From contig CALUYO010000006.1 in NCBI GenBank assembly GCA_944325005.1, positions 1 to 64,000 of the forward strand: a stretch of DNA of 64,000 nucleotides, given 5' to 3'. The notes under the pieces are model-generated. The model was given only the letters and a program-made list of their open reading frames with translations, made no database searches and was not told the origin of the DNA. This document shows positions 44,193 to 53,758 of the stretch, in pieces; the first letter of the stretch is position 1, and every line of letters begins with the position of its first letter. The stretch is from Candidatus Gastranaerophilales bacterium (GTDB taxonomy: Bacteria; Cyanobacteriota; Vampirovibrionia; Gastranaerophilales; Gastranaerophilaceae). A program made the translations under genes and the position numbers.

Positions 44193-44929
44193 AAAAAGTA
44201 TTGTTATCTATTACTGTTTTAAGCCTTTTGTTAGGCTGTGCTTCGCTTTCTACACAGGCTGTTTCAGATGGTGTAGAAAGAGGTTTTGTGTCAGTCAGTT
44301 CTTCTGCAAATACAGAAGTTACGCCGGATGTTGCAGATATTTCAATAGCCGTGCAGACTTTTGATACTAAATCTCTGCAAAAGGCTACAACAGAAAATAA
44401 AGAAATTTCTGAAAAAGTTATTTCAGCGTTAAAAGGTATGATTAATCCCGCAAACGGAGATTATGTAAAAACAATGGATTACAGTGCTTCTCCTCTTTAT
44501 ACATATTCTGGAAGTAAAAGAAATTTTGACAAATATCAGGTATCAAATACTGTAATTGTTCACACAAAATCAATTGACAAAGTGGGTTCAATGATTGATA
44601 AGGCAATTTCTCTCGGTGCAACAAATGTTGATAACTTAGCTTTGTCTGTTTCAAAATACGATGATCAGTGTAATGAACTTCTTGTAACTGCAACAAAGAA
44701 AGCTCAAGGCAGAGCAAATTTACTGGCTAAAGCCGCATCAACAACGGTAACAGGTGTTCGTTCATTGAACGTAAGCTGCAGTGCAAACAATTCAATAACT
44801 CCTCAATACCGTATGTTGTCTGCAAATATCGGCGGTGCTGATATGGAAGCAAAAGCGGCTTCAACATCTATTGAAAAGGGTATTGTAAAAATTTATGCAA
44901 CTGTTAACGCTACATTCTTTGTAAAATAA
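44189..44929 (+). CDS. SIMPL-domain (DUF541) lipoprotein
   Basis: 246 residues with a lipoprotein signal ('LSLLLGCASLS', Cys at about residue 17). The body has the SIMPL/DUF541 pattern: 'FVSVSSSANTEVTPDVADISIAVQT', 'KYQVSNTVIVHTKSIDKVGSMIDKAISLGATNVDNLALSVSK' in outline and 'ATKKAQGRANLLAKAA'. Periplasmic-face outer or inner membrane anchoring is expected. The role of the family is unclear. AAGGAG precedes the ATG. Confidence 0.75.
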   Translation: MKKVLLSITVLSLLLGCASLSTQAVSDGVERGFVSVSSSANTEVTPDVADISIAVQTFDTKSLQKATTENKEISEKVISALKGMINPANGDYVKTMDYSASPLYTYSGSKRNFDKYQVSNTVIVHTKSIDKVGSMIDKAISLGATNVDNLALSVSKYDDQCNELLVTATKKAQGRANLLAKAASTTVTGVRSLNVSCSANNSITPQYRMLSANIGGADMEAKAASTSIEKGIVKIYATVNATFFVK

Positions 44930-45119
44930 CATTGACGTATTCATCGTCTATATTTTCAAAAAATTCGGTAAAATTTTTTGTGATAATGTTTGAAAGTGCA
45001 AGCTGATAATACCCTTGCATGCCTTCGTTCCAGTTAAAATTTATCGAATCATGTAAGATAAGTGAAAGCTCAAAAATATTTTTGAGCTTTTCTATTGTTT
45101 TTTCATCATTGATATCCAT
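44910..45119 (-). CDS. Small helical protein, paralog of 53214-53441
   Basis: A 69-residue acidic helical protein from the ATG at 45119. It contains 'LILHDSINFNWNEGMQGYYQLAL' then '...NIITKNFTEFFENID'. The protein encoded at 53214-53441 shows the same pattern: L-x-D-S, 11 residues, Y-Y-Q-x-A, then I..N..E. Both are divergent from a small HTH gene. No known family. It may be the effector or cofactor half of a two-gene regulatory or toxin-antitoxin-like unit. Its end overlaps the SIMPL gene by 20 bp. Confidence 0.55.
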   Translation of the reverse strand: MDINDEKTIEKLKNIFELSLILHDSINFNWNEGMQGYYQLALSNIITKNFTEFFENIDDEYVNVILQRM

Positions 45120-45227: not shown

Positions 45228-45437
45228 ATGAGCATTAGAGAAGATATAAAAATTTTAATTACAAAAGAGGCTAAAACATTAACGGAAATTGCCTCAAAAA
45301 TTTATAGTGATAAAGAAAAAAGAAAAGCGGTTAATTGTTTGTCTCAAAAACTTAGATTGAAAACAATTAAATTTGAAGAAGTTCGTGAGATAGCAGATAT
45401 CCTTGGTTATGATATAAAATTTGAAAAAAGAAAATAA
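45228..45437 (+). CDS. Small HTH protein (LLM-like / phage-repressor-like)
   Basis: A 69-residue protein with one helix-turn-helix: 'IREDIKILITKEAKTLTEIASKIYSDKEKRKAVNCLSQKLRLKTIKFEEVREIADILGYDIKFEKR' in outline. The pattern '(L)T.iA.kl....l..KL....i.f.e...IAd.LGydi' is common in small Cro-like regulators of gut anaerobes. It is divergent from the small helical gene at 44910-45119 and ended by a strong terminator. Confidence 0.65.
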   Translation: MSIREDIKILITKEAKTLTEIASKIYSDKEKRKAVNCLSQKLRLKTIKFEEVREIADILGYDIKFEKRK

Positions 45438-53213: not shown

Positions 53214-53441
53214 TTAATGTCGAGTATTTTTTTCAGATTGTAAAGCACAAAGTTTGCAGTCTAAGTTTTCCAGTTTTTCGCAGACTTTGTCAAGATTGTC
53301 CAATATCATTTCAGCAAAGGCGTATTGATAATAATTATCCTTGTCATTTTGAAAAGAAAGCATAAGAGAATCATTCAAAACTTTCATCTGGTTATAGACA
53401 TTAATTGTATTTTCAAGAATATTATTAATTTCTTCTTCCAT
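53214..53441 (-). CDS. Small helical protein, paralog of 44910-45119
   Basis: A 75-residue acidic, helical protein: 'VLNDSLMLSFQNDKDNYYQYAFAEMILDNLDKVCEKLENL' in outline. It shares the spacing L-x-D-S, 11 residues, Y-Y-Q-x-A, I..N with the protein at 44910-45119. The C-terminal part has two cysteines (CKLC). It is transcribed from a perfect consensus promoter that overlaps a palindrome, and is divergent from an XRE gene. Function unknown; a conserved partner of small HTH proteins. Confidence 0.6.
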   Translation of the reverse strand: MEEEINNILENTINVYNQMKVLNDSLMLSFQNDKDNYYQYAFAEMILDNLDKVCEKLENLDCKLCALQSEKNTRH

Positions 53442-53473
53442 ACTAACCTCTTAACTAATAAACTAGGTTATAA

Positions 53474-53524
53474 AACTATTATACTAGTTTGAAATTTATT
53501 TGTCAAGTAACTATTATAGTAGTT
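53474..53524. promoter_or_regulatory. Two overlapping opposed promoters, each with the same palindromic operator
   Basis: Two 16-bp palindromes of the form AACTA-N6-TAGTT lie at 53474-53489 and 53509-53524, 35 bp apart. Leftward promoter: TTGACA (53501-53506 on the other strand), 17-base spacer, TATAAT (53478-53483), a perfect consensus; its -10 is inside the first palindrome. Rightward promoter: TTGAAA (53489-53494), 17 bases, TATTAT (53512-53517); its -10 is inside the second palindrome. The divergent XRE protein is the obvious repressor of both. Confidence 0.7.
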
Positions 53525-53527
53525 AAT

Positions 53528-53758
53528 ATGACTAGAAAAAATGGTGTTAAAAATAATAAAATAGGTCTTAAAATTAAATTAGAACGGACAAAACTTAACA
53601 TATCCCAAGAGGATTTAGCATTTCGTGCGAATGTTAATAAAAATACTATAGGAGCAATTGAACGAGGAGAACAATCTCCGACTTTTGATACATTGGAAGC
53701 TATTGCAGATGCGTTTGAAATGTCTGTTCAAGAATTGTGCAATTTTGATAATATCTGA
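53528..53758 (+). CDS. Small XRE-family HTH repressor
   Basis: 76 residues from the ATG at 53528: 'IGLKIKLERTKLNISQEDLAFRANVNKNTIGAIERGEQSPTFDTLEAIADAFEMSVQELCNF' in outline, a plain Cro/C1 domain. The upstream ATG at 53489 is rejected because it lies in the promoter region. The start codon is only about 11 bases past the -10 box, so the mRNA is leaderless or nearly so; no Shine-Dalgarno sequence is seen. Probably represses itself and the divergent small gene. Confidence 0.75.
   Translation: MTRKNGVKNNKIGLKIKLERTKLNISQEDLAFRANVNKNTIGAIERGEQSPTFDTLEAIADAFEMSVQELCNFDNI

Follow-up and report, generated by a model that had tools for sequence, protein, structure and literature searches.

A probable negatively autoregulated divergent module, in which a swappable XRE repressor controls a small helical hairpin protein, in Gastranaerophilales

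The window, i.e. the whole stretch of 64,000 nucleotides analysed here, which comes from a gut bacterium (Candidatus Gastranaerophilales), contains at 53.4 kb a gene for a 76-aa XRE protein and, divergent from it, a gene for a 75-aa hairpin protein. We regard the pair as probably a chromosomal, negatively autoregulated module, in which a swappable repressor controls the hairpin protein as output. Sites, promoters, conserved spacing, the association of operator and recognition helix, their joint exchange, the family-wide pairing and the swapping of partners were computed; we infer binding of XRE dimers, repression instead of activation, a leaderless start and the output role of the hairpin protein. 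The features are:

44910..45119, minus strand: second module, paralogous hairpin protein, 69 aa (BLASTP 2e-5 to the 75-aa protein; profile E 1.8e-24, but itself a row of the profile)
45228..45437, plus strand: second module, divergent 69-aa small HTH-like protein of the IADILGYDIKFEKRK type
53214..53441, minus strand: gene of the hairpin protein, 75 aa, acidic (net -7), predicted two-helix hairpin, proposed output gene (ORF, family profile, AF2)
53453-53468, no strand: O3, predicted operator AACTAATAAACTAGGT, 9/10 arm bases matching, at roughly +3 to +18 on the leftward transcript
53474-53489, no strand: O2, predicted operator AACTATTATACTAGTT, exact AACTA-N6-TAGTT, encloses the leftward -10 box
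53478..53506, minus strand: leftward promoter TTGACA-17-TATAAT, 12/12 consensus (-35 at 53506..53501, -10 at 53483..53478)
53489..53517, plus strand: rightward promoter TTGAAA-17-TATTAT, 10/12, 17-bp spacer (-35 at 53489-53494, -10 at 53512-53517)
53509-53524, no strand: O1, predicted operator AACTATTATAGTAGTT, exact AACTA-N6-TAGTT, encloses the rightward -10 box
53528..53758, plus strand: gene of the proposed XRE (HTH_3) repressor, 76 aa, recognition helix NKNTIGAIERG (Pfam HTH_3 1.3e-15)

The sequence-only reading had described two overlapping divergent promoters, each with its -10 box within a palindrome, and had called the leftward one a perfect TTGACA, 17, TATAAT. Both descriptions held, and the leftward promoter matched the sigma-70 consensus in all 12 positions. 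The twin AACTA-N6-TAGTT palindromes claimed for 53474-53524 were also found there and are the only two exact matches in 64 kb, but the inventory was incomplete, because O3 with its single mismatch had been overlooked. The centres of O2 and O3 are 21 bp apart, i.e. two turns. Shuffling gave an expectation of 0.08 exact matches, with two or more in 1 of 100 shuffles; from base composition, about 0.24 sites would be expected in 64 kb, and the estimate for a second site within 60 bp was ~5e-4. A genome search for additional sites, as suggested earlier, yielded one exact match in the rest of the 2.0-Mb genome. It is placed within a 237-aa coding frame and was for this reason rejected as a regulon member. 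A chance origin of the palindromes was rejected on the basis of the shuffle counts, the genome search and a blind search of 383 genomes (see below).

The XRE ATG at 53528 follows the end of the rightward -10 box by 10 nt. The XRE mRNA is therefore expected to be leaderless or to carry a leader of 0-4 nt, and the layout supports the leaderless repressor mRNA that had been suggested. For the hairpin gene a leader of about 30 nt with the Shine-Dalgarno sequence AGAGG is predicted.

Counted back from the XRE ATG, the predicted operators are at 75, 54 and 19 nt in both the window and locus L038, and genome G138 of the same genus has three exact sites at these distances. At the -75 position L038 carries the exact palindrome AACTAGTAAATTAGTT and L126, from another genus, AACTAGTTTACTAGTT. 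In L126 exact sites precede the XRE ATG by 75 and 19 nt, and in L194, from a third genus, by 72 and 16 nt; the small partner in L194 showed only marginal similarity to the hairpin profile (6.8 bits). L048 has near-matches at 73 and 18 nt. The O3-O1 spacing of 55-56 bp recurs in these three loci, all of other genera. L040 has altered arms (AACCTG../ACCTA..TAGGT) at positions 75, 54 and 19. The blind search of the 383 genomes, for which the twin palindrome pattern alone was used, hit six places; at four (the window's own, G138, G206 and G276) there is a divergent module whose XRE protein has an NKN[TS]IG recognition helix. The G276 module had been missed by the protein search, and the XRE protein of G206 retains the NKN[TS]IG helix although it shares only 53% identity with its counterpart in the window. 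The remaining two places (L193, L197) are direct repeats of one palindrome and have no XRE gene in the ORF lists. A reversed control pattern matched in 3 genomes.

Comparison of L037 and L038 gave identities of 97.6% for rplI, 100% for the gap between rplI and the hairpin gene, 96.1% for the hairpin gene and 98.9% downstream. The corresponding values were 57.1% for the intergenic region, 57.9% for the 5'-terminal 141 nt of the XRE gene and 97.1% for its 3'-terminal 69 nt; the swapped XRE portion of L037 is 88.7% identical to L041. Operators and helix-turn-helix were thus replaced as a unit. Because the palindromes recur at constant spacing, are associated with the NKN[TS]IG helix and are exchanged jointly with the helix-turn-helix, they are very probably the operators of the XRE protein. 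A 66% identical XRE relative (L010, genome G171) has no hairpin gene of the family adjacent to it or elsewhere in its genome.

The XRE protein scored 1.1e-10 for PADLOC Control_protein. The source genome has an unusually large set of 50 HTH_3 (XRE) genes in 2.0 Mb, and a second recurrent pairing in it consists of XRE genes divergent from type IV prepilin-like proteins (FTLAEVLITLGIIGVVAA.. in L163, L172, L173, L174, L175, L182, L186 and L191). The 75-aa protein matched no Pfam, NCBIfam or PADLOC family, with only marginal PHROG scores. Its AF2 model (pLDDT 93.7) has helices at 2-31 and 37-73; as modelled, the protein is a two-helix hairpin and so is without a DNA-binding domain. A structure search with the model yielded no specific relative; its matches, at E > 0.5, were generic helical hairpins, designed proteins and CsoR/FrmR-like regulators. 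The PDB sequence matches look spurious.

A family profile was built from the orthologues of the 75-aa protein and the paralogue in the window. At E <= 0.01, with weak matches included, it identified acidic proteins of about 45-90 aa in 89 of the 383 genomes sampled from the order, whereas 292 genomes sampled from the phylum contained no member outside the order; the core alignment is almost gap-free. Of 92 hairpin loci, 82 have a small gene for a DNA-binding protein that is transcribed divergently, in most cases at a distance of 50-200 nt. The count covers distinct loci that no contig end interrupts, excludes the L135 partner, a spurious ORF, and takes L055/L090 as one. The same pairing was seen at 50/59 loci outside the profile-building set, while chance pairing is estimated at about one per cent given 50 HTH_3 genes per 2-Mb genome. 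The 82 partners comprise 49 XRE proteins, 21 of a second small HTH-like type (ending ..IADILGYDIKFEKRK; HTH by sequence pattern, with only weak Pfam matches), 9 AbrB/MazE-like proteins (one with Pfam MazE 0.0017, the others judged by eye) and 3 RHH_5 proteins (two on a Pfam-level basis). The IADILGYDIKFEKRK-ending family (45228-45437, L043, L045, L050, L060) is itself without a Pfam or NCBIfam family.

The source genome has at least five hairpin modules: at 53.4 kb and 45 kb in the window, at C4:146 kb, at C5:81 kb and, more weakly, at C3:72 kb. The two in the window are 8 kb apart and have different controller types; the promoters of the second are a leftward TTGACA-17-TATACA and a -10 box TATAAT that precedes the controller ATG by 4 nt. 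In genome G056 two hairpin proteins (L119/L127) are 81% identical and their XRE partners 26%; a third hairpin, about 45% identical, is paired with a protein of the second small HTH-like type. The hairpin tree shows about a dozen changes of partner class (13 counted, one from a mislabelled locus), few of them forced by well-supported branches. As judged from these sequences, similar hairpins can have unrelated DNA-binding partners. Hairpins of a clade that is usually AbrB-paired were found at L106, L110 and L112 without a controller, beside an apparent glyoxalase-type gene; a loss of the controller is possible at these loci.

The promoter layout is widespread in the family. The leftward promoters had a median score of 11.1 vs 9.0 in shuffles, and TTGTCA, the exact complement of the -35 box, was found in 55/82 intergenic regions, against 3.8 in shuffles, usually at a distance of 23-29 nt upstream of the controller ATG. 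A -10 box ending 3-11 nt before the controller ATG was present in 63/80 modules (shuffles 21), that is in 63/68 with HTH-type and 0/12 with AbrB/RHH-type controllers, and a Shine-Dalgarno-like motif preceded 53/80 hairpin genes and 6/80 controllers. The leaderless-like layout also occurs in 10/24 other XRE genes of the source genome. When the intergenic regions were tested for twin palindromes of any sequence, only 13/80 loci gave a significant result; we therefore rejected twin palindromes as a family-wide signature and consider clear twin sites typical of NKN-type modules, not of the whole hairpin family. Some HTH-like-type modules (L131, L139, L134) have perfect twin palindromes of their own (ACTTAAAnnTTTAAGT type) 20 bp apart.

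We propose that dimers of the 76-aa XRE protein bind the three AACTA-N6-TAGTT operators. On the very strong leftward promoter, XRE at O2 and O3 would overlie the -10 box and the start region and so keep expression of the hairpin gene low, while XRE bound to O1 over the -10 box of its own promoter would hold its own level low. As the promoters overlap, polymerase would use one at a time, and a drop in XRE activity would let the consensus leftward promoter give a burst of hairpin protein. An operator over the -10 box fits repression, but XRE control proteins of restriction systems are able to activate from similar sites. The autorepressed layout put forward in the sequence-only reading is supported by XRE-type predicted operators on both promoters, and since the operator is the same on both, homeostasis, i.e. 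negative autoregulation, is predicted.

The same reading had raised a bistable switch, and bistability of the module is possible. It would require feedback from the hairpin protein because the shared operator alone yields negative autoregulation. The CI/MOR switches of TP901-1 and phi13 have divergent promoters and three operators (PMC8516035). In a switch of this kind the hairpin protein would bind XRE and shift its choice of operator, and the overlapping promoters would then support two self-maintaining states. The anatomy at 53.4 kb, with divergent overlapping promoters, three predicted operators and a small partner expressed from the promoter opposite the repressor, is as expected for this mechanism. 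Yet the partner is a two-helix hairpin without HTH, near-identical hairpins occur beside unrelated controllers that have no obvious shared docking segment, and identical operators on both promoters favour homeostasis. We thus consider a CI/MOR-like switch unlikely. Toxin-antitoxin pairs also combine one constant small protein with exchangeable controllers, and XRE, RHH_5 and AbrB/MazE-like proteins are classes typical of antitoxins; there are several copies per genome and control looks stringent. In that case the hairpin would inhibit growth, and the DNA-binding protein would serve as its controller or antitoxin. This is improbable given that the genes are divergent and not in one operon, that the controllers are bare DNA-binding domains, that the hairpin protein has no catalytic residue and no match to a toxin-antitoxin family, that some hairpins appear to have lost their controller (the three loci above) and that a comparable XRE-DUF397 pair proved non-toxic (PMC6262351).

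A remnant or captured prophage immunity region could account for the similarity of the XRE protein to phage repressors in PHROGs (2.7e-14) and for the phage-like mosaic exchange of repressor and operators. The resemblance to phage immunity regions noted earlier does not extend to origin, however. The module has a fixed place between rplI and an SH3-like/pheT block, which is shared by several species and by another genus. For the left gene no phage relative was found, and members of its family are scattered among core genes (dut, uracil-DNA-glycosylase-like, response regulator). A phage origin was rejected as being without support; the one match to a phage record spans the rplI part, and two weak matches in viral contigs concern XRE only. 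Accordingly, we hold this explanation to be highly improbable.

We therefore return to the autoregulated module with the hairpin protein as its output and the DNA-binding partner as an exchangeable local controller. It is more likely that the hairpin protein acts elsewhere as an output than that it is a dedicated anti-repressor, because the controllers comprise hardly more than a DNA-binding domain and have no obvious common docking tail. Tentatively, the hairpin proteins may be new Gastranaerophilales effectors in plug-in modules, each with a constant output, a strong divergent promoter and an interchangeable controller. If so, controllers drawn from four DNA-binding kinds, with operators moving along, would provide several independently addressed copies per genome. 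The analysis exposes a previously unnamed protein family and a divergent design that is kept while the kind of repressor changes, and it predicts an XRE operator from operator-helix association and joint exchange alone. Separation of controller and output makes the function of the hairpin protein testable. We found no description of such Gastranaerophilales regulator/small-protein pairs in the open-access literature.

Several known systems share parts of this design. The module resembles CI/MOR in its divergent promoters, three palindromic operators and XRE-type repressor with a small divergent partner, here recognised from the DNA alone. In contrast, it is chromosomal and non-phage, its XRE protein lacks the C-terminal dimerisation domain of CI, and its partner is a helical hairpin of no HTH family instead of a MOR-type HTH protein. 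Mosaic phage immunity regions likewise exchange repressor and operators jointly, as seen between L037 and L038, but a CI immunity region belongs to a phage or prophage that also carries lytic and integration genes, whereas the module sits between housekeeping genes. Type II toxin-antitoxin systems also combine one small protein family with interchangeable DNA-binding classes; here, however, the genes are divergent in 82/92 loci and not co-operonic, and there is no known toxin fold and no antitoxin docking tail. C proteins of restriction-modification systems such as C.Csp231I are small XRE proteins with a leaderless mRNA and paired palindromes (C-box CTAAG-N5-CTTAG) over their own promoter (PMC4824078). 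The module probably shares these traits, the leaderless mRNA being deduced from layout, but it has a divergent hairpin gene, its layout predicts repression of both promoters, and no endonuclease or methylase gene adjoins it in the 45-62 kb ORF list (read by eye) or at the rplI-locus orthologues. The XRE-DUF397 pairs of Streptomyces (WhiJ/BldB-like, Scr1/Scr2) are lineage-expanded pairs with small proteins that were tested as non-toxic regulators (PMC6262351; PMC10294661). Like these, the hairpin modules are lineage-expanded combinations of XRE and a small, often acidic protein with many copies per genome, yet the hairpin has no Pfam match and is not DUF397, it is divergent and not downstream, and its DNA-binding partner varies in fold.
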